From the NCBI GenBank assembly GCA_021205245.1, contig JAJPXZ010000107.1, forward strand, positions 23,591 through 58,353: a DNA stretch of 34,763 nucleotides. The letters are read 5' to 3'. Shown one piece after another: positions 4,303-34,506 of this stretch; the first letter of the stretch is position 1; each line of letters opens with the position of its first letter. A program made the translations under genes and the position numbers. The DNA is from Planctomycetaceae bacterium (GTDB taxonomy: Bacteria; Planctomycetota; SZUA-567). The notes beneath the pieces were generated by a model. It had not been told where the DNA came from, did not search any database, and saw only the letters and a program-made list of their open reading frames with translations.

Positions 4303-4839
4303 CTACTCGTTCAGCGTAAACCGCCAGACGCAATTGCTGGTCGGACAGGTGATGTCGGGAAAACAACTGACGCACTCGGTCGTAAAGCGGTCGTCGATGG
4401 TGGAGGCGAACAGGCCGTATTCGACCAGACCCACCGGCTTGCAGGGGTGGAAAGGCATCCCTTTCCGCTCGCGCGCGGCTTGCACCCGGCAGGTGGTAAC
4501 GTCGTAGGTGAGAACATTCCCTTCGATAGTCGTTACCGTCTTATTGAGGGGCGCGTACATGCGAAACGCCAAGGCGCGCCGCAATCCGTCCAACCCGGCC
4601 CGCTCGGGCAGGTCCAGGAACTGTTTGATGCGCTTTGCCTCGATGACGGTGAACCGCCGCCAGGCGTTGATGTTGTGCCGGTTCGCCTCTTCCATGCCGT
4701 GTTCGGATTCGACCGACTGAAACCACAGCCCGTCGTGGGCAATCCAGTTCTTCGAGTAATTCGCAACCAGTTCCAGCAGCTTTTCCTTGGGCAGATCGGC
4801 TATTGAGTCGTACTCCCGCCCTGGTTCATCGTGGGACAT
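4303..4839 (-). CDS. DUF6125-like uncharacterised cytosolic protein
   Basis: About 178 aa with Cys-containing C-terminus (TTCRVQAARERKGMPFHPCKPVGLVEY..CVSCFPDITCPTSNCVWRF). ATG at 4839 is preceded by GAGGAGAGGG. Family assigned from memory of the motif pattern. Confidence 0.65.
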   Translation of the reverse strand: MSHDEPGREYDSIADLPKEKLLELVANYSKNWIAHDGLWFQSVESEHGMEEANRHNINAWRRFTVIEAKRIKQFLDLPERAGLDGLRRALAFRMYAPLNKTVTTIEGNVLTYDVTTCRVQAARERKGMPFHPCKPVGLVEYGLFASTIDDRFTTECVSCFPDITCPTSNCVWRFTLNE

Positions 4840-4965
4840 CACCCTCTCCTCTTCATGCATGCGTTTTTATACCCGTCTGGCGGGCCGGTATATTGTTGCG
4901 GATCGCGATCGTTTTTTCTACAATTAAGTATTCTATACCCTATTTTTTCACACTAGGAGAGGGGC

Positions 4966-6429
4966 TTGATTCATAAACTCAGAGAGTCCGCCGTATCGGT
5001 GATTCCGGTCATGGCTATCGTCTTCCTCCTCAATTTCACCATTGCCCCCCTGCCCCCCGGCCAATTACCCCAATTCATCCTGGGAGGCGTGCTGCTCCTC
5101 CTTGGGTTGAGCATTTTTCTGGTCGGCGCGGATATCGGCATGGTGCCGTTTGGACAGCGCGTGGGCGCGGCACTGACGCACCGGCGCAGCCTGGTGCTGA
5201 TACTCGTCGCCTCCTTCGCCATTGGCTTCGCCATCACTATCGCCGAACCGGATGTGCAGGTCCTGGCGAATCAGGTGGCGGGAGTGGCACCGGGCATGGA
5301 CCGGACCGCGCTGCTCCTCATGATCGCGGTGGGAGTAGGCCTGTTCCTCGTCATCGCCATGCTTCGCGTGGTGCTGCAATTGTCCCTGCCGCTGCTGCTT
5401 ATCCTGTTTTATATCGCCGTTTTTATCGTTGCGAGTTTTGTCGACCCCGCCTTCGTCGCCATCGCCTTCGACTCGGGCGGCGCGACCACAGGCCCTATCA
5501 CCGTGCCATTTATTATGGCGATGGGTATCGGTGTCGCCGCGACGGTGAAGCGTACCGACGGGGCTGATAATTCCTTCGGCTTTGTCGGACTCGCATCCAT
5601 CGGCCCCATCGCCGCCGTCGCCGTTATGGGCTTGTTCAGCCCCATGGACAAAAATGTCGATGTGGCCAACCTCGCCCCCGCGGCCGAGACGTCCCTGTTC
5701 GAGCCGTTCCTGCAGCAACTCCCGCACGTCTCCTACGACATAACGATGGCACTGCTGCCGCTGGTGGCGATATTCTTCATCTTCCAGATTACCCTGCTGC
5801 GGTTGCCCGGGCAACAGGTACGGCGTATGGTGTTCGGCTTTATCTACGCCTGGATCGGCCTTATCATCTTCATGACCGGCGTCAACGGCGGCTTTACCCC
5901 CATCGGCAGATCGCTGGGGATGCAATTGGGCGTCCTTGCCGACGGCTGGGCGCTCCTCCCGGTCGGCCTTATCCTGGGCGCGGTGGTGGTGTGCGCCGAA
6001 CCGGCGGTGTGGGTCTTGACCGAGCAGGTGGAAGAGGTGTCCGGCGGCTCGATACGCCGTTCGGTCATGCTGGGGGCGTTGTCGCTGTCGGTCGCCATCG
6101 CCGTGACCCTTGGCATGCTCAGGGTTATTACCGGCCTGAGCATCTGGTATATCCTTATTCCCGGCTATATCCTGGCCCTTTCCATGACCAAGGTATGTCC
6201 GCCCATGTTCACCGCCATCGCCTTCGACTCGGGCGGGGTGGCATCGGGGCCGATGTCCACCACCTTTGTCCTGGCCCTGACCCTGGGTGCGTCCGCCGCC
6301 ATCGGCGGCAACCCCGCCACCGACGCCTTCGGCATGGTGGCGATGATCGCCATGGCTCCTCTGATCACCATCCAGATTCTCGGTCTGGTCGTTAAATACG
6401 TGGAAGGGAAATCATGCAAAACCACATAG
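4966..6429 (+). CDS. DUF1538 domain-containing integral membrane protein (two tandem halves)
   Basis: 487 aa polytopic protein; AIAFDSGGATTGPIT and AIAFDSGGVASGPMS repeated in the two halves. TTG start preceded by GGAGAGGGGC. Confidence 0.82.
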   Translation: MIHKLRESAVSVIPVMAIVFLLNFTIAPLPPGQLPQFILGGVLLLLGLSIFLVGADIGMVPFGQRVGAALTHRRSLVLILVASFAIGFAITIAEPDVQVLANQVAGVAPGMDRTALLLMIAVGVGLFLVIAMLRVVLQLSLPLLLILFYIAVFIVASFVDPAFVAIAFDSGGATTGPITVPFIMAMGIGVAATVKRTDGADNSFGFVGLASIGPIAAVAVMGLFSPMDKNVDVANLAPAAETSLFEPFLQQLPHVSYDITMALLPLVAIFFIFQITLLRLPGQQVRRMVFGFIYAWIGLIIFMTGVNGGFTPIGRSLGMQLGVLADGWALLPVGLILGAVVVCAEPAVWVLTEQVEEVSGGSIRRSVMLGALSLSVAIAVTLGMLRVITGLSIWYILIPGYILALSMTKVCPPMFTAIAFDSGGVASGPMSTTFVLALTLGASAAIGGNPATDAFGMVAMIAMAPLITIQILGLVVKYVEGKSCKTT

Positions 6430-7109
6430 CCACGCCGGCGCAGATATTGATCTGTTTCACCAAGCGCCACCGGGGCGAAAAACTGGTCGCGGCCGCGAAA
6501 TCGGCCGGCGCCAGGGGCGGCACGCTGGCACTCGGCCAGTCGCTGGGCAACTCCAAGGTTCTGCAGGCGCTGTCCCTCGCGGACATCCAGCAGGACGTTA
6601 TCTTTACCGTTATCGGCGCGGAAGGGCCGGCCGTCGTGAAGGCAATCCGCGACGCGGCCGAACAGGAGCCGCGCAAGTTCGCCGGCACCGCCGTTGTCCT
6701 GAAAGTGCCTGAACTGTTTCTTCGCAAAACGAACGAGACGCAAATTCTCTCCCACGAGCAAACGAGGAGCACCCCCATGGATTCCGGCTACAAACTGATC
6801 ACCGTCATCGTCAATTCCGGCTACGCCGACGACGTCATGGCCGAGGCCAGAAAAGCCGGAGCCAGCGGCGGCACCATCATCAACGCGCGCGGCACCGGCA
6901 CCGAAGAGGACGTCAAATTCTTCGGCATTACCCTGGTTCCGGAAAAAGAAATGCTCCTTATCGTCTCCGAGAAGGAGAAGGTGAAAGGCATTGTCGAAGC
7001 CATCGCCACCGTGCCGACCCTGTCGGAACCGGGCGGCGGCATTATCTTCAACATGAATGTGGAAGAGTTTATTCTGCTGGGTCAGCAGAAGACGTGGCAA
7101 AAGGATTAG
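6414..7109 (+). CDS. Tandem-domain PII-like (GlnB-fold) regulatory protein
   Basis: 231 aa; two similar ferredoxin-like halves, ILICFTKRHRGEKLVAAAKSAGARGGT and LITVIVNSGYADDVMAEARKAGASGGTIINARGTGTEE..VSEKEKVKGIVEAIATVPTLSEPGGGIIFNMNVEEF. Overlaps DUF1538 gene by 16 nt. Confidence 0.82.
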   Translation: MQNHIATPAQILICFTKRHRGEKLVAAAKSAGARGGTLALGQSLGNSKVLQALSLADIQQDVIFTVIGAEGPAVVKAIRDAAEQEPRKFAGTAVVLKVPELFLRKTNETQILSHEQTRSTPMDSGYKLITVIVNSGYADDVMAEARKAGASGGTIINARGTGTEEDVKFFGITLVPEKEMLLIVSEKEKVKGIVEAIATVPTLSEPGGGIIFNMNVEEFILLGQQKTWQKD

Positions 7110-7134
7110 GCTTTTTCCAACTCGCATACTGTGG

Positions 7135-7165
7135 CGGCCCGGCAATGCGCCGGGCCGTTTTTTTT
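7135..7165 (+). terminator. Rho-independent terminator of the DUF1538/PII operon
   Basis: Perfect 9-bp stem CGGCCCGGC-AATGC-GCCGGGCCG followed by TTTTTTTT. Confidence 0.95.
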
Positions 7166-18734: not shown

Positions 18735-19559
18735 CTACTCCTCCAGGGTCGCCCAATCCTGGGTGATGCCCGCATTCAGAAATAATTTCTTCGGATCAAT
18801 CTGTTCACGCAAGAGCCGCAGATCGTCGTCCGATGGCTCCGGCGTTATCGACACGCTCGGTGAAATCTCGATGTCATAGCCGGTGTTGTCGCGGATCTGC
18901 TCAGCTGTGACGCCGGGATGGATACTTTCCACGCGCATCATCTTCGTCTTCGGATTAATACCCATTATACATAAATTCGTCATGACAAAAGCGGTGCCGC
19001 CGCCCGGCAGGCCGGAGCGATCCTCATGACCGGCCGCACCGGAGATAAAATCGCACCGATCAACCAGAATGCGCTTGTCGTGGTTGACGATGATGCCGAC
19101 GCGCTTCGCGTGCGACGCCAATTCCGTCTGGGCCAGGACGCCTGGCAGACGAATCTTCGGGTTGGCATAGTCGCCGATGCAGGCGATGTTCAGGTTACCG
19201 AATTTGTCAACCTGCGCGCCGGACGCGAACGCCAGCCCGACCAGACCAAGGCGGAACATGCCCAGGCAATCTTCCAGCGGTATCTGACTTCGACACGGCC
19301 AGTATATAAGATCATACTCCCAATTGGAACTGGGGATGGTATCATGATCGAGAACCGGGTCAAGAACCGGTCCCATCATACACAGGGCGTTGGGGGCGTG
19401 CCTGAGTTGCGCCAGCCGCACCGCGACCAGTGGAATGCCGCAGGTGCGGATATAGGCCTTGCCGCCGGTGCCGATGCCGGTGAAATTCATCTCATCGTCG
19501 ACGACTCGTTTCGAGACTTCGACCGCGAGAAGTTCTTCAAGAGAATATCGCTTGTCCAT
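18735..19559 (-). CDS. CoA-transferase beta-subunit-like protein (GctB/IpdB-like), copy 1
   Basis: MDKRYSLEELLAVEVSKRV..FTGIGTGGKAYIR..SGAQVDKFGNLNIACIGDYANPKIRLPG..SGLPGGGTAFVMTNL..EQIDPKKLF. ATG overlaps alpha stop (TAATG). Confidence 0.87.
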   Translation of the reverse strand: MDKRYSLEELLAVEVSKRVVDDEMNFTGIGTGGKAYIRTCGIPLVAVRLAQLRHAPNALCMMGPVLDPVLDHDTIPSSNWEYDLIYWPCRSQIPLEDCLGMFRLGLVGLAFASGAQVDKFGNLNIACIGDYANPKIRLPGVLAQTELASHAKRVGIIVNHDKRILVDRCDFISGAAGHEDRSGLPGGGTAFVMTNLCIMGINPKTKMMRVESIHPGVTAEQIRDNTGYDIEISPSVSITPEPSDDDLRLLREQIDPKKLFLNAGITQDWATLEE

Positions 19560-20464
19560 TATCCTGCCCTCCGGGGATGGCCAAGGCGTTTTTCGAGTAA
19601 TTCGTGGCCGCCCAATTTTTCGATGTATTCGTCCTCGTTCTTCGTGCCGTAGATAAATTCGTCCAGGTAGCGGGCAAAGTCCTCGGCTGTGGCTGAGCAC
19701 TCCTGATAATAATCGGCGTGAGCCTGATCGAAGTCGTACCGGGTGTCGCAGGAATTTGGGTGCGCGCCGTGCGGCACGTTGCAGACGGTTTGAATAAACA
19801 GTTTCGGCAACATCGTCTGGGTTGGGGTGCGAATAATCTCTTCCTCGGGGACGAGTTCTTCGACGCTGACAATGGTGTGTTTGCCGCAGCGGGCGATGTA
19901 GATGTCTGTTTCATTGTCCATCATGCGGATGGTGTCTAATTGTACGTTGCCATAGGTGTCGGCCCGGTGGGCGTGGATAATGGACACGTCCGGTTTGAAC
20001 GCCTCCATGGCGACAAGCTTTTCGCCGGTGAAGGGACAGACCACTTCCTTGAATTCGGGATTCTTCAGGAGATCCGAATGCAGCGGCACGCGGCTGATTG
20101 CGTAAGGCAAGCCAAAGGTGCCGGCGCGGAACTTGTCCATGGCGCAGCTTTCGGAGATATCGACAAAGCGAATCTTCTTCTGCTCGACCGCGCGGCGGAA
20201 ATTCTTGGCCATGCCGGCTGTGAACAGGCCCACATAGGAAGACCACGCCTCCTTGACGCAACCGGCTCCGATAAGCATGTCGAAATCCATGCCGGCCGAC
20301 CAGGCATAAATGGTGAGGTCGCGCTTCTTCTGCCGCACGATTTCGCGGACAAGCGCCATAGGGCATTTCCGAATGAGGGAGCCGCCTATGGCCAGCTTCG
20401 CACCGTCCGGGATGGCGCTGACCGCATCGTGAAGCGACTTTAGTTTTGATCTTCTTTGCTGCAC
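19559..20464 (-). CDS. CoA-transferase alpha-subunit-like protein (GctA/IpdA-like), copy 1
   Basis: KLAIGGSLIRKCPMALVREIVRQKKRDLTIYAWSAGMDFDMLIGAGCVKEAWSSYVG; IIHAHRADTYGNVQLDTIRMMDNETDIYIARCGKHTIVSVEE; PHGAHPNSC. Confidence 0.88.
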   Translation of the reverse strand: MQQRRSKLKSLHDAVSAIPDGAKLAIGGSLIRKCPMALVREIVRQKKRDLTIYAWSAGMDFDMLIGAGCVKEAWSSYVGLFTAGMAKNFRRAVEQKKIRFVDISESCAMDKFRAGTFGLPYAISRVPLHSDLLKNPEFKEVVCPFTGEKLVAMEAFKPDVSIIHAHRADTYGNVQLDTIRMMDNETDIYIARCGKHTIVSVEELVPEEEIIRTPTQTMLPKLFIQTVCNVPHGAHPNSCDTRYDFDQAHADYYQECSATAEDFARYLDEFIYGTKNEDEYIEKLGGHELLEKRLGHPRRAG

Positions 20465-27226: not shown

Positions 27227-28129
27227 TTATCGGGCGATGTCGGTGCGGGTTATGGTGGCCAGGTGCTTTTCGCCTATGATGCCGAGATAGGCGTCCCAAT
27301 CCTTGCAGCCGTAGACATGCCGGTCGAGATAGCTCCTGAAGCCTTCCGGCGTGGCGCTCTTCTCCTGGTACTCTCGGGCGTGGACTATGTCGAAGTCGTA
27401 ACGGAGATCACAGGAGTTCGGGTGCGCGCCGTAGGGAGCGAGGACGACGGCGTCGACAAAGAGTTTGGTCAGCACCGTCTGTTGATTGGTGCGGATGACC
27501 TCCTCCTCGTCCACAAATTCCTCGACAGTGACGATGACCTTCTTCGCCGCCTTGCAGATGAGCATATCTGTCTCGTTGTCCATCATGCGCACCGGGTCAA
27601 GTTGCACATTGCCATAGGGATCGGCGCGGTGGGCATGCATGATGGCGACGTCGGCATGGAAGGGTTCGAGCGCTATCCATTTTTCGCCGGTGAAGGGATC
27701 GGTAACCTCGTGCTGGTATTCGGGGTTCAGCATCAGGTCGGTGTGAAGCGGCGTTTTCGAGAGGGCATAGGGGGCGCCGGTGGCGGCGGCGCGGAAACGA
27801 TCGATTGAACATGTCTCGCTGTGGTCGACATAGCGAATCATCCCCTCCTGCACGGCGCGGCGGAAGTTTTTGGCCAGGCCGACATTCGACAGGCCGACGT
27901 AGGACGAGTGCGCTTCCTTAACGCACCCCGCCCCGATCAACATATCGTAATCGATGCCGTTGTTCCACCCGAACAGGGTGAGGTTCTTACGGCCTTGGCG
28001 GATAATTTCGTGGACGAGCGCCATAGGATGGCGGCGTATCAGTGAGCCGGCTATGGCAACCTTGTCGCCGTCCTTTATCATATGGACGGCATCGGCCAGG
28101 CTCATTCGCTTGCTAACCCTTTCTGGCAT
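27227..28129 (-). CDS. CoA-transferase alpha-subunit-like protein (GctA/IpdA-like), copy 2
   Basis: MPERVSKRMSLADAVHMIKDGDKVAIAGSLIRRHPMALVHEIIRQGRKNLTLFGWNNGIDYDMLIGAGCVKEAHSSYVG; paralogue of 19559-20464. Confidence 0.88.
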   Translation of the reverse strand: MPERVSKRMSLADAVHMIKDGDKVAIAGSLIRRHPMALVHEIIRQGRKNLTLFGWNNGIDYDMLIGAGCVKEAHSSYVGLSNVGLAKNFRRAVQEGMIRYVDHSETCSIDRFRAAATGAPYALSKTPLHTDLMLNPEYQHEVTDPFTGEKWIALEPFHADVAIMHAHRADPYGNVQLDPVRMMDNETDMLICKAAKKVIVTVEEFVDEEEVIRTNQQTVLTKLFVDAVVLAPYGAHPNSCDLRYDFDIVHAREYQEKSATPEGFRSYLDRHVYGCKDWDAYLGIIGEKHLATITRTDIAR

Positions 28130-28232
28130 GGACGGTTCCTCCTTCAAGGATGCATTTTCCAGCAAATTAAAGCGTTGAAACTTCGTAAGGGGTGTTCGGA
28201 GGCTGGAGCAGTTTTGTTATGTTATTGTTATA

Positions 28233-29094: not shown

Positions 29095-30888
29095 TTAGTT
29101 ACAGCACCCGCCCTTGTTGGAGAACATTCCGCGCGGCGTATAGTGCGTATGCAACAGGTGGTGCGCTGTTTCACCGTTGGCTTCGCCTAAGAAATCCTTG
29201 TACAACGCGGCGATGTCCGGGTTTTCGTGGCTTTTACGCATGCTCTTCCGTTCGTCCTCGCTGTACAGCGCACGCATGCGTTGCTCGCGGTAGCCGGTCT
29301 CGCGGTTCCGGGGCTGGCCGCCGCCGTTGATGCAGCCGCCCGGACAACCCATTACTTCGATGAAATGGTAGGGGCTGGTGCCGGCAGCCACTTCGTCCAT
29401 GAGGATATCCGCGCCCGCCAAACCGCTTGTCACAGCGATATTCACAGTCACCCCTTCGAGATGCTTAAACGCCGGCAGCGTGTCGGCGATGGTCAACGAA
29501 GCCGATTTCACCTGTTCCAGGCCGACGATGGGCGTCACGTGCAGGCCTTCGAACGGGAGTTCGCGCCCGGTCACCAACTCGTAGACGGTACGGAGTGCCG
29601 CCTCCATCACGCCGCCGGTGACGCCGAAGATATCGGCCGCGCCAGTTGACAGCCCCAAGGGCTGGTCGAAATTGCCTTCGGGCAGACCGGTGAAATCGAT
29701 GCCGGACTGGCGGATCATTCGGGCAAGCTCGCGGGTGGTCAGGACCGCGTCAACGTCGCGGCGGCCGTCCACCTCCATCTCGGGCCGCTGTACCTCGTAC
29801 TTTTTCGCCGTGCAGGGCATGACAGAAACCATGAAAATGTTTTCCGCCGGGACACCGATGCGTCCCGCGTAAAAACTTTTCACCAGCGCGCCCAGCATGG
29901 TGTGGGGTGATTTGCAACTCGACAGGTGATCGAGTTCGCCCGGATAGGCGTGTTCGATATGTTTGATCCAGCCAGGCGAGCAACTGGTGATCATCGGGAG
30001 CGCCGCGCCGCCCGGTTTGACGCCAAGGGCTTGTTCGAGCCGGCCGAGCAGTTCTGTCCCCTCCTCGATGATGGTAAGGTCGGCGGCGAAGTTGGTGTCG
30101 AAAACATCGTCAAAGCCGATCTCCCGGAGGGCCGAAGCCATCTTGCCTGTCACCGGCGTGCCGGTCGGCAAACCGAATTCCTCGCCGAGGGCGGCACGAA
30201 CCGCCGGCGCGACCTGCACCACCACCCGAGTGTTCGGGTCCTGCAACGCCCGCCATACCGGCGCCAGAGCGTCAGTCTCGCTGAGGGCGCCGGTGGGACA
30301 GGCGCTGACGCATTGGCCGCACATGGCGCAAGCGGTGCCGCCCAGGGGCAGATCGAGGCTCGGACCCACCACCGTGTCGAAGCCCCGGTTTTGCAGCGCG
30401 ATAGCACCCACCTTCTGCACCTCGCCGCAGACGGCAACGCAACGGCGGCAAAGGATACACTTGCCGGTATCACGGGTCACCGACGGGCTGACGTCCACAA
30501 TGCGGGTCGACATTTCGCCGCGCAGGCGCGACTCGCCCACGCCTAATTCTTCGCCCAATGCTTGCAGTTCGCACTTGCCGCTGCGGCTGCAGGAGAGGCA
30601 GTCCTTGGGGTGATCGGAGAGGAGCAATTCATACAGTACTTTGCGGGCGGCGCGGACCTTGGGCGAATTGGTGCGGATCGTCATGCCGTCCCGGGCCTTG
30701 ACGATGCAGGATGCCTGGAGGTTGCGCATCCCGTCGACCTCGACCACGCAGATACGGCAGGAGCCGCACTGATGCACGCCTTCCAGGCGGCAGAGGTTGG
30801 GGATGTGGACGTTGTTGGCGTTGGCCGCTTCCATGATGGTACTGCCGTCGGGTGCTGTCAGAGCTTTGCCGTTGATGGTGATGTTCAT
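29095..30888 (-). CDS. hydA: [FeFe]-hydrogenase catalytic subunit (HydA/HndD-like, group A)
   Basis: 597 aa; N-terminal 2Fe-2S (CRLEGVHQCGSCRICVVEV), DHPKDCLSCSRSGKCELQ, two 4Fe-4S motifs (CILCRRCVAVC, CAMCGQCVSACPTGA), H-cluster motifs TSCSPGW, MPCTAKKYE, MGCPGGCINGGGQP. Confidence 0.95.
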   Translation of the reverse strand: MNITINGKALTAPDGSTIMEAANANNVHIPNLCRLEGVHQCGSCRICVVEVDGMRNLQASCIVKARDGMTIRTNSPKVRAARKVLYELLLSDHPKDCLSCSRSGKCELQALGEELGVGESRLRGEMSTRIVDVSPSVTRDTGKCILCRRCVAVCGEVQKVGAIALQNRGFDTVVGPSLDLPLGGTACAMCGQCVSACPTGALSETDALAPVWRALQDPNTRVVVQVAPAVRAALGEEFGLPTGTPVTGKMASALREIGFDDVFDTNFAADLTIIEEGTELLGRLEQALGVKPGGAALPMITSCSPGWIKHIEHAYPGELDHLSSCKSPHTMLGALVKSFYAGRIGVPAENIFMVSVMPCTAKKYEVQRPEMEVDGRRDVDAVLTTRELARMIRQSGIDFTGLPEGNFDQPLGLSTGAADIFGVTGGVMEAALRTVYELVTGRELPFEGLHVTPIVGLEQVKSASLTIADTLPAFKHLEGVTVNIAVTSGLAGADILMDEVAAGTSPYHFIEVMGCPGGCINGGGQPRNRETGYREQRMRALYSEDERKSMRKSHENPDIAALYKDFLGEANGETAHHLLHTHYTPRGMFSNKGGCCN

Positions 30889-33800
30889 GCGTCGAACCTC
30901 CTCTCGCAGTGCAGACAGCGGAGCGTCTCCGCCAACGCGTCCAGTTTGTGGAAGCCCAGTTCCACTTCGCGGAAGTTGTCGAGCCTGTCCTTCACCGGCA
31001 TGGTTCGCATGGGGAAGCGTTGATGTGGCTCGGTGACCTCCGGGTCCTGGGCCAGGCCCACGTCGAACCAGGTTCCTTTGTTGAGACTGCCGTCGCCGCC
31101 GAGAAATTTGTCAATATTCGCCGCCGCCCGCTTGCCGTCGGCAATGGCGTGGATGACCACGTTCGCGCCCCACGGCGACACGTCGCCGCCGGCGAATACG
31201 CCAGACTGCGAGGTCGCGGCGGTAAAGCGGTCGATGGCCAGCGTCCCCGACTTGTTGACCTGCATGTTGGCGCTTTCGTAGAACGCGGTGTCCACATCCT
31301 GGTTAATGGCGGCGACCACGCCGTCGCATTCGAGGATGAACTCGCTGCCCTTCACCGGCACGCTGCGGCGGCGTCCATCCTTGCCGAAATCGGCCATGTC
31401 GCGACGTATAAACCTGACGCCGGTGACCTTGCCGCCCTCGCCCAGTACTTCTGTCGGCGAAGCCAGGGCGATTATCCTGACCCCTTCCTCGCGGGCGTCC
31501 TCGATTTCCTCGCGGCTGGCGGACATCTGCCTGAGGGTGCGCCGGTACACCACCGTCACCTCCTCTGTGCCAAGCCGCAGCGCGCTCCGGGCCACGTCCA
31601 TGGCGGTGCTGCCGCCGCCGACAACGACGAGTCGCCTGGGAACGGACTGATCCGTACCGAGGCCGATGCGACGCAGGAACGTCAGGCCGCTTTCGACTCC
31701 TGCGAGGTTTTCGCCGGGGATGTTCATGGCACGGGATTTCTGCGTACCGACGGCGACGTAGACGGCGTCGTGATCGCGCCGGACCTGGTCAAACGGCATG
31801 TCATCGCCGACGCCGCGGCCGAGGTGAATCGTGACGCCCGCCGCCTCGATGGCGCGGATTTCCTTTGCCAATACCGCTTTCGGCAGGCGGAATTCGGGGA
31901 TGCCCCAATACATGACTCCGCCCGCCACCACTTCGCGCTCATAGACGTCGACGGCATGGCCGTTGTTGGCGAGGTAGTAGGCGCAGGCCAGCCCGGACGG
32001 CCCCGAGCCGATGACGGCGACCCGTTTGCCCGTGGACGGGCGGCTCTCCACCGCCGGGACGTTATAATCGTCCCGCAGAGCGTAGTCGCCGATGAAACGT
32101 TTGACGCCGCAGATCGACAGCGCCTCGTCCACTTGGGACCGGCGGCAATGGTCTTCGCACGGATGGGTGCAGACGCGGCCGCACACCGCCGGAAATGGGT
32201 TTTCCTGGCGGATCAACTGATAGGCTTCCGACAGCTTGCCCTTGGCCGCCAGCGACATGTAACCGGGAATAAAGACATTGGCCGGGCAGGCATTGCGGCA
32301 TGGCGAGGTCTGCAAATCGGCACACACACCGGCTGCGCAATGGTGATCGTGGATGTGACTCTCATATTCGTCGCGGAAATAACGGAGGGTCGAAAGAACC
32401 GGATTCGGCGCGGTTTGCCCGAGGCCGCACATGGCGGTCTGCTTGAGCGTCTCGGCCAACTCCTCCAGCAGCTCGATATCACCCTCCTGCCCCTTGCCTT
32501 CGGTGATGCCTTCAAGGATCTCCAGCATGCGCTTGGTACCGACCCGGCACGGCAGGCATTTGCCACAGCTTTCGTCGCGGATGAAATCCATAAAGTAGCG
32601 GGCGGTGTCCACCATGCAGGTGTCTTCGTTCATTACCACCAGCCCGCCCGACCCCATGATCGCCCCGAGCGCGGCCAGATTGTCGTAGTCCACTGGTGTG
32701 TTGAGGTGCGCGCGCGTCAGGCCGCCGCCGGAGGGACCGCCGGATTGGATGGCCTTGAATTTCTTGTCGCCTCGCAGGCCGCCGCCGATGGTGTAGACGA
32801 TTTCGCCGAGCGGAATGCCCATCGGCACCTCGATGATGCCTGTGTTGACAATATGGCCCGCCAGGGCAAAGACCTTGGTCCCGGCGCTCTTCTCGGTGCC
32901 GAAGCCCCGGTACCATTCCGCCCCGTTCAGGACAATGGGCGCGATGTTTGCGAGCGTTTCCACATTATTGATGATTGTCGGTTTGCCGTAGAGGCCGCAT
33001 TCGAAGGGGAAAGGTGGCTTCTGGCTTGGTTCGCCGCGCCGCCCCTCGATGGATGCGAGGAGCGAGGTTTCCTCACCGCAGACAAACGCCCCCGCGCCAA
33101 TACGAATCTCCAGGTCGAAGTGGAAGCCGGAACCGAGAATATTCTCCCCCAGGAGCCCCGCTTCCCGCGCCTGGGCGATAGCTGCCTGCAGGCGCTCGAT
33201 AGCCATGGGGTATTCGGCCCGCACGTAGGCATACCCCTTATCCGCGCCGATGGCGTAGCCGCCCAGCAGCATGCCTTCGATAACCGAATGCGGATCGCCT
33301 TCGATAATGGAACGGTCCATGAACGCGCCCGGATCGCCTTCGTCCGCATTGCAGACGATGTATTTCCGGTCCGAGTGCTGGTCGTGGGCCGCCTGCCACT
33401 TGACGCCGGTGGGGAAGCCAGCCCCGCCCCGGCCACGCAGCCCCGACGCCTTGACAATGTCGACGACCGCCTGCGGTGAGTCAGCCAACGCCTGTGCGAG
33501 CGCCTGGTAGCCGTCCCGGGCGATGTACGCTTCAAGGGAGGAGTAATCCATCGCACCGCAGTTGCGGAGAGCTATCTTCACCTGGGCGGCAAAGAAGTCG
33601 ATGTCGGAGAGCCTTGGCACATACTCTTCGCGGCGCGGGTCGTAATAGGTATATTCCTCAAGTATTTCGCCGCCGACCAGATGGCGCTCGACCACTTCAG
33701 TAACTTTATCCGGGGTCATGGCGGTATAGAAGATGTCGCCGGGGCGTACCAGCAGGACCGGCCCGACGGCACAGAGGCCCATGCAGCCGGTTGTGACAAC

Positions 33801-33989
33801 GCGGGTCTCTGCTGCCAGGCCCGCCGCTTCGAGGCCGACAACGAGGGCGTCCCGAACCTCCAGGCAACCCGAAGACACGCAGCCAGCACCGCCGCAGACC
33901 AGAATTTCGCGCGAAAAAGCTTTCGCTTCCCGGTCGTAGACGGCGGCGACGGCCGCCAATTCGTGGGGGTTCGCGATTCGGTTAGACAT
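30885..33989 (-). CDS. NuoF/HydB-like NADH-binding flavoprotein fused to a GltD/NfnB-like NAD(P)H:FAD oxidoreductase domain
   Basis: 1034 aa from MSNRIANPHE. 2Fe-2S thioredoxin-like N-terminus (CGGAGCVSSGC..TTGCMGLC); NuoF domain (GLRGRGGAGFPTGVKW, CNADEGDPGAFMDRSIIEGDPH, ESCGKCLPCRVG); GltD-like domain (CRNACPANVFIPGYMSL, CGRVCTHPCEDHCRR, VAVIGSGPSGLACAYYLANNGHAVDVYE, VVVGGGSTAMDVARSALRLG, GVFAGGDV). Stop overlaps hydA ATG. Confidence 0.93.
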   Translation of the reverse strand: MSNRIANPHELAAVAAVYDREAKAFSREILVCGGAGCVSSGCLEVRDALVVGLEAAGLAAETRVVTTGCMGLCAVGPVLLVRPGDIFYTAMTPDKVTEVVERHLVGGEILEEYTYYDPRREEYVPRLSDIDFFAAQVKIALRNCGAMDYSSLEAYIARDGYQALAQALADSPQAVVDIVKASGLRGRGGAGFPTGVKWQAAHDQHSDRKYIVCNADEGDPGAFMDRSIIEGDPHSVIEGMLLGGYAIGADKGYAYVRAEYPMAIERLQAAIAQAREAGLLGENILGSGFHFDLEIRIGAGAFVCGEETSLLASIEGRRGEPSQKPPFPFECGLYGKPTIINNVETLANIAPIVLNGAEWYRGFGTEKSAGTKVFALAGHIVNTGIIEVPMGIPLGEIVYTIGGGLRGDKKFKAIQSGGPSGGGLTRAHLNTPVDYDNLAALGAIMGSGGLVVMNEDTCMVDTARYFMDFIRDESCGKCLPCRVGTKRMLEILEGITEGKGQEGDIELLEELAETLKQTAMCGLGQTAPNPVLSTLRYFRDEYESHIHDHHCAAGVCADLQTSPCRNACPANVFIPGYMSLAAKGKLSEAYQLIRQENPFPAVCGRVCTHPCEDHCRRSQVDEALSICGVKRFIGDYALRDDYNVPAVESRPSTGKRVAVIGSGPSGLACAYYLANNGHAVDVYEREVVAGGVMYWGIPEFRLPKAVLAKEIRAIEAAGVTIHLGRGVGDDMPFDQVRRDHDAVYVAVGTQKSRAMNIPGENLAGVESGLTFLRRIGLGTDQSVPRRLVVVGGGSTAMDVARSALRLGTEEVTVVYRRTLRQMSASREEIEDAREEGVRIIALASPTEVLGEGGKVTGVRFIRRDMADFGKDGRRRSVPVKGSEFILECDGVVAAINQDVDTAFYESANMQVNKSGTLAIDRFTAATSQSGVFAGGDVSPWGANVVIHAIADGKRAAANIDKFLGGDGSLNKGTWFDVGLAQDPEVTEPHQRFPMRTMPVKDRLDNFREVELGFHKLDALAETLRCLHCERRFDA

Positions 33990-34506
33990 GGGCGGGGGCC
34001 TCCTCATGCTGATAGCGCTCGAGAATATGATCCAGCTTATCGGGTAGCACCTGCTTGTAGACGACATCGTCGATGGCGAGGGCGGGCGCCAGGCCGCAAG
34101 CGCCGATGCAACGCGCCACCTCGAGAGTGAAGAGCCGGTCCGGAGTGGTCTCGCCCACTTTGACGCCCAGGGTTTTGCCCAGCTTCTCGACAATCTTCTT
34201 GCCGCCCCGTACATAGCAGGCAGTGCCAAGGCAGACGCGGATGGTGTGTTTTCCCCGTGGTTGCGGGGTGAAGAATGAATAGAAGCTGACCACGCCCGAG
34301 ACGTGGGCCAACGGCAACCCCATCTCCCGCGCCACCACCTCCTGGACTTCCAGCGACAGGTGGCCGTACACTTCCTGGGCCATATGCAGAACCTGGATGA
34401 GTGAGCCGTCGGCCTTGTTGTCCCGCGCGAACTGCGCAATTCGCTCCAGCAGGGTCTTTTCGTCCGTGGTGCCGCAGCAACCGCACCCGCAATGCGCCTC
34501 TTCCAT
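33982..34506 (-). CDS. NuoE/HydC-like [2Fe-2S] subunit
   Basis: 174 aa; VSFYSFFTPQPRGKHTIRVCLGTACYVRGGKKIVEKL..CIGACGLAPALAIDD. Overlaps the downstream fusion gene by 8 nt. Confidence 0.94.
   Translation of the reverse strand: MEEAHCGCGCCGTTDEKTLLERIAQFARDNKADGSLIQVLHMAQEVYGHLSLEVQEVVAREMGLPLAHVSGVVSFYSFFTPQPRGKHTIRVCLGTACYVRGGKKIVEKLGKTLGVKVGETTPDRLFTLEVARCIGACGLAPALAIDDVVYKQVLPDKLDHILERYQHEEAPAHV

Follow-up and report, generated by a model that had tools for sequence, protein, structure and literature searches.

The gene pair at positions 4966–7109 of the window (the whole stretch of 34,763 nucleotides that was analysed, from a Planctomycetota genome) is rather likely to encode a UmpAB-type antiporter together with a cognate PII regulator that would be made as two products from one gene. 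The transporter family (UmpAB) and the PII family are already known; what is new here is that DUF1538 and PII go together in all loci examined, that the halves of the membrane protein are inverted repeats and that the PII gene has a conserved internal start.

Layout of the two-gene unit

The first open reading frame (4966–6429, 487 aa) begins at a TTG placed after AGGAGAGGGG, and the second (6414–7109, 231 aa) begins inside it; the overlap is exactly 16 nt, the figure given in the sequence-only reading. The features of the unit are as follows.

4866–4894, + strand: candidate sigma-70-like promoter TTTATA-17-TATATT (consensus scan, 9/12, a weak match)
4955–4959, + strand: Shine-Dalgarno AGGAG, 6 nt 5′ of the DUF1538 TTG (sequence; duplex energy −7.3)
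4966–6429, + strand: predicted fused double-DUF1538 (UmpAB-type) cation/H+ antiporter, 487 aa, 7+7 TM helices, inverted (PF07556, NCBIfam, AlphaFold2, charge bias)
5008–5637, + strand: DUF1538 domain 1, UmpA-like, N-terminus predicted inside (domain match, from contig coordinates; charge bias)
5764–6390, + strand: DUF1538 domain 2, UmpB-like, N-terminus predicted outside (domain match, from contig coordinates; charge bias)
6414–7109, + strand: tandem PII-like protein, full-length product of 231 aa (Pfam, hhalign, AlphaFold2)
6414–6757, + strand: PII domain N, probably a diverged copy (hhalign of N against C, 99.6%; ferredoxin-like fold)
6764–6769, + strand: internal Shine-Dalgarno GAGGAG within the PII frame (sequence; duplex energy −7.6; kept in relatives)
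6777–7109, + strand: predicted second product, free C-terminal PII domain of 110 aa, from the in-frame ATG at 6777 (start conserved in 80/81; separate gene in 9 relatives)
7133–7159, + strand: intrinsic terminator, 11-bp GC-rich stem and T tail, ending the two-gene unit

The gene upstream of the DUF1538 frame runs in the opposite direction. Together with the strong terminator at 7133–7159 and the weak promoter match on the 5′ side, this makes 4966–7109 a closed, self-contained two-gene unit. It may be noted that a DUF6125 gene (4303–4860, − strand) is divergent from the antiporter unit.

The membrane protein is a fused pair of DUF1538 domains

The 487-aa protein matched PF07556 (DUF1538) in two copies, with an overall E-value of 2.6e-133 and 442 bits against a gathering threshold of 22.6. 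When matched separately, the two halves gave 6e-66 and 9e-69; both domains were complete, with AIAFDSGGATTGPIT in one half and AIAFDSGGVASGPMS in the other, so that the duplication and its repeated motif, first read from the letters, were borne out. The NCBIfam model for UmpA fell on the first half and that for UmpB on the second, in the same order as UmpA/UmpB. In 2017, the DUF1538 pair UmpA and UmpB from Halomonas zhaodongensis was demonstrated to act as a Na+(Li+,K+)/H+ antiporter, heterodimeric and with an optimum at pH 9 (PMC5484666). The sequence-only reading had proposed an uncharacterised transporter or channel with a dedicated PII sensor; the word ‘uncharacterised’ thus has to be given up, while the dedicated sensor stands on the linkage described below. 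From homology to UmpAB, Na+(Li+,K+)/H+ antiport by the window protein is probable (PMC5484666). Since its NCBIfam scores, 181 and 164 bits, lie well under the equivalog cut-offs for UmpA and UmpB (490 and 500), the protein is assigned by sequence to the UmpAB family with equivalog status not established and the exact ions uncertain. In both proteins, two homologous DUF1538 units of seven predicted helices would work as a pair in the same order; the Halomonas units differ in being separate chains (fused here), their identity to the window protein is distant, and a PII partner is not mentioned for them (PMC5484666).

The AlphaFold2 model of the 487-aa protein (pLDDT 89.1, pTM 0.88; plasmid sequences were left out of the AlphaFold2 input alignments) yielded a helix list consistent with seven helices per DUF1538 half. 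Each half had helix breaks at AEP and FDSGG, and alignment and model placed the invariant acidic residues E94, E345, D169 and D421 at these breaks. The AEP and FDSGG..GP helix breaks in each half probably form the ion site. When Lys and Arg residues were counted, the loops of the N half and those of the C half fell on opposite sides (49/49 and 48/49 sequences). By this charge bias, read through the positive-inside rule, the two DUF1538 halves are inverted repeats of 7+7 helices. No sequence relatives of DUF1538 were found in the PDB, and among solved structures the antiporter model had no significant fold relatives (best E 0.046, TM about 0.2 or less).

A further DUF1538 gene of this genome is single-domain and is followed by a single PII gene (L027:8058–9129, G000:C156). 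Its product is balanced in charge (6 vs 5; another single-domain sequence, L039, was disregarded in the charge count), and this one protein and a near-copy are suggestive of a dual-topology homodimer.

A PII-like gene adjoins DUF1538 in every locus examined

In 102/102 loci with readable downstream sequence, from several phyla, a PII-like gene adjoined DUF1538, often with gene overlap. These loci comprised 19 from Planctomycetota, 77 from a genome scan (L062 was read by eye, L041 and L107 were left out as they end too early, and L040 is the G004 locus) and 6 plasmid records. The pair was present in Bacillota, Spirochaetota, Desulfovibrionaceae, Planctomycetota, Alphaproteobacteria and others, its hosts being anaerobic bacteria, many from animal guts. 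Such recurrence goes far beyond what chance would give. Because the adjacency held throughout, a dedicated PII regulator for DUF1538 is well supported; conserved linkage was the point on which the sequence-only reading had staked this pairing. No gene was constant as a third partner at these loci, and a literature search found no paper linking DUF1538 with PII.

As the genome scan comprised the 80 matches scoring best against the query, the proportions of arrangements are biased towards the query subtype; Pseudomonadota genomes, Halomonas included, lay outside the genome search. Among these best 80 matches, the fused double DUF1538 with a fused tandem PII was the commonest arrangement (68 loci), and two separate PII genes occupied the place of the tandem in nine loci. 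Hence, the covalent tandem is not obligatory. Gene pairs for UmpA and UmpB with a single PII also occurred, as did a fused double DUF1538 with a single PII (G011) and a single DUF1538 with a single PII, the last also in the same genome. The alphaproteobacterial UmpA-UmpB-PII operons (Methylocystis and Chelativorans plasmids) have the same families in the same order, but UmpA and UmpB are separate and the single PII is closer to the C than to the N domain.

It had been suggested from the letters that the duplication of both partners reflects a matched pseudo-twofold symmetry, with one PII domain for each half of the transporter. The commonest arrangement among the best 80 matches, double DUF1538 with two PII domains, agrees with such a match, and so does the single DUF1538 with its single PII in the same genome. 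However, a single PII accompanies UmpA+UmpB as well as the fused DUF1538 of G011. Moreover, the inversion of the DUF1538 halves places their twofold axis within the plane of the membrane, so that two equal docking sites are not available on the cytosolic side. The matched symmetry was rejected on these two grounds and is very improbable.

Some loci showed further features. A LuxS-like gene (by eye) stands beside the module in L066 and 11 other spirochaete loci, mostly from Treponema; it was rejected as a conserved third partner because it is lineage-specific, being shared only among Treponema loci. In a Spirochaetales locus (L049:1958–5744), the PII gene stands between two DUF1538 genes, each of them double (DUF1538-PII-DUF1538). 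In other Planctomycetota (L128:2624–3010 and L130:2623–2949), a second, extremely diverged PII-like gene comes after the first.

The second gene encodes two PII-like domains

The C-terminal half of the 231-aa protein matched PF00543 (P-II) over residues 127–220 with an E-value of 5.8e-13 (49.5 bits vs a gathering threshold of 25); Pfam gave no P-II match in the N-terminal half. When a profile of the N halves was compared with a profile of the C halves by hhalign, the probability was 99.6% (E 3.3e-24). The AlphaFold2 model (mean pLDDT 85.9, pTM 0.81) had the same alpha/beta ferredoxin-like layout in both halves, and GlnK/PII entries were the best single-domain matches in a structure search with the PII model. 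Both PII-like domains are thus real, as had been supposed, and the PII fold extends to each half; the N domain is strongly diverged.

The window PII departs from canonical GlnB/GlnK in several respects. Its T-loop is about 6 residues shorter than that of E. coli GlnB, and the uridylylation tyrosine is absent. The region of GlnB K58 reads PEKE here, with an invariant E177 (59/59 sequences); K90 is replaced by I, and R101 and R103 are absent. We take K58, K90, R101 and R103 to be the ATP phosphate contacts of GlnB. As these triphosphate contacts are missing, binding of ATP in the way typical of PII proteins appears unlikely, and the regulator probably responds to another ligand or by another mode of binding.

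The C-domain profile gave the single PII proteins of other DUF1538 loci higher scores than the N-domain profile did (for example, 96.5 vs 66.6 bits for that of Methylocystis), and in relatives with two separate PII genes, the first scored as N and the second as C. Judged by these profile scores, the C domain is probably the ancestral regulator and the N domain a diverged copy of it.

The PII protein might also sense the same signal without gating the antiporter and act on other targets, like GlnB. PII proteins have many targets in general, and members of the subfamily occur as orphans away from DUF1538 (L138 of G009 and L137 of G010). Against this, all DUF1538 loci examined show the adjacency, often with overlap, and share no other constant neighbour, and the T-loop is short and without its tyrosine. 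We consider an action confined to other targets unlikely and favour regulation of the antiporter.

Of the two orphans, the one in G009 (L138:4198–4521) is of the single type, with priA on one side and a lipoate ligase gene on the other. That in G010, a relative with no DUF1538 (L137:3225–4999), is directly before an ArsB/CitMHS-type permease, and its subfamily may serve other ion transporters too.

A conserved internal start lies at the boundary of the PII domains

The PII gene contains a site that the sequence-only reading did not mention: GAGGAG and, 7 nt further on, an in-frame ATG (6764–6779), placed precisely where the second PII domain begins. The duplex energy of this internal site (−7.6) is stronger than that of the gene's own start (−6.0). 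An in-frame start codon was observed at the domain boundary in 80 of the 81 fused tandem-PII genes, being ATG in 71/81; a gene of Vescimonas (L131) was the sole one without it. A good Shine-Dalgarno (≤ −6 kcal/mol) was found at the boundary in 70/81, compared with 19–20% of control windows taken from the same two genes (Fisher 3e-36), controls which count related sequences as independent. Among representatives below 60% identity, which only lessen the effect of kinship, 49/58 had the site (p 2e-25). In 9-codon windows, ATG was present at the junction in 67/81 genes vs 28% elsewhere in the gene.

When the linkers were recoded synonymously, 25.6 strong sites were expected, against 61 observed, and the Shine-Dalgarno core was found in all three codon phases (31/22/21). 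This excess, with the spread over codon phases, argues for selection on the RNA and not on the amino acids. The linker Arg codon was AGG in 7/7 cases vs 15% elsewhere. The mRNA at the site was less structured than at other ATGs in 79/79 genes, to which the purine-rich linker contributes.

Two other explanations of the site were weighed. The first is that a purine tract resembling a Shine-Dalgarno pauses the ribosome between the domains for folding, with no start of translation. Such tracts within genes have been proposed to slow ribosomes, and the linker is indeed rich in purines. Pausing needs no start codon, however, and a correctly spaced one is almost always present, with ATG enriched at the junction as above; the low local mRNA structure also fits initiation. 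We regard pausing as a distinctly improbable account. The second is that the site is a relic of two fused PII genes, only the full-length tandem being made or needed today. The nine loci with two separate PII genes at the same place are in its favour, as the fused and separate states interconvert, at least two changes being forced on the tree. A relic would nevertheless be expected to decay, and here the start signal persists, whatever its codon phase, while the linker between the domains is highly variable. In a clade of 32 fused genes (spirochaete, Desulfovibrionaceae, Planctomycetota) that is deep, spans at least three phyla and has long branches in the tree, ATG was kept in 32/32 and a Shine-Dalgarno of ≤ −6 in 28/32. 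A relic is therefore improbable.

The best reading of the site is that the PII gene gives two products, the tandem of 231 aa and a free C domain of 110 aa, both of which would be produced. Given the internal start, the label ‘tandem PII’ covers half the story. A parallel internal start between the DUF1538 halves, considered as the same design in the first gene, was rejected, being present in 9/79 genes only.

Genes of this design are known elsewhere. SctQ (SpaO/YscQ) of type III secretion is made as the full-length protein and its C-terminal domain from an internal in-frame start, in a ratio of about 1:3 (PMC4443714). Cas11 within cas8 (PMC11899642) and RpnS within rpn (PMC10327210) are likewise separately used C-terminal products of internal in-frame starts. 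The likeness to SctQ lies in the gene design only (more C than N domains), fold and process being unrelated, and that to Cas11 and RpnS in the internal start, proteins and function being unrelated. The hallmark of the SctQ and Cas11 type, a conserved in-frame start with a Shine-Dalgarno at a domain boundary, is present in the tandem-PII genes at the frequencies given above (80/81 and 70/81).

Proposed mechanism

From the computed domain content, linkage, inverted orientation (charge bias) and conserved internal start, we infer a scheme that adds the making of both products, PII regulation, ligand sensing and N.C.C assembly. The first gene would give a UmpAB-type monovalent cation/proton antiporter, one chain with two opposed 7-helix halves, and the second a cognate PII-like regulator binding its cytosolic side; a small ligand would set the regulator and so turn the antiporter on or off. 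Ribosomes starting at 6414 would make the N-C tandem, and those starting at the internal Shine-Dalgarno/ATG (6764–6779) extra free C domain. PII domains act in threes. One tandem may thus join one free C domain in a PII-type trimer, N.C.C, which one unlike face would make asymmetric; this asymmetry would suit a transporter without threefold symmetry. The separate N and C genes of the nine relatives indicate that both domains are kept and fit a need for N plus free C. That such an N.C.C trimer gates a non-trimeric, inverted-repeat antiporter, with internal initiation setting the stoichiometry of the sensor, is put forward tentatively. UmpAB was active in E. coli from a fragment without a PII gene among its reported ORFs (PMC5484666), which argues that PII is not required for transport; the regulator would accordingly be expected to tune antiport rather than enable it.

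Few signalling proteins are as widespread as PII proteins. As in GlnK-AmtB and SbtB-SbtA, the gene for a PII-family protein is here next to that for a membrane transporter, and control of the transporter by the PII protein is expected. In the cases known so far, a homotrimeric PII binds a trimeric transporter, and such control appears restricted to trimeric transporters (PMC10710835). In contrast, UmpAB is a heterodimer, represented here by a predicted inverted single chain, and the window PII is tandem and short-looped, lacks the GlnB ATP phosphate contacts and has a second start. If true, N.C.C gating would overturn the notion that only trimeric transporters come under PII control. The constant place of a PII gene next to a dimer-type cation/H+ antiporter across several phyla suggests that salt and pH balance are controlled post-translationally, and we found no paper describing such PII-linked control. 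Given the conserved internal start, one protein of these operons is probably absent from current annotation.

Other genes of the window

Two similar CoA-transferase-like genes (19559–20464 and 27227–28165, − strand; by eye) flank TRAP-transporter-like genes, and genes at 29095–34439 (− strand) resemble, by eye, subunits of an iron hydrogenase or NADH dehydrogenase-type complex.
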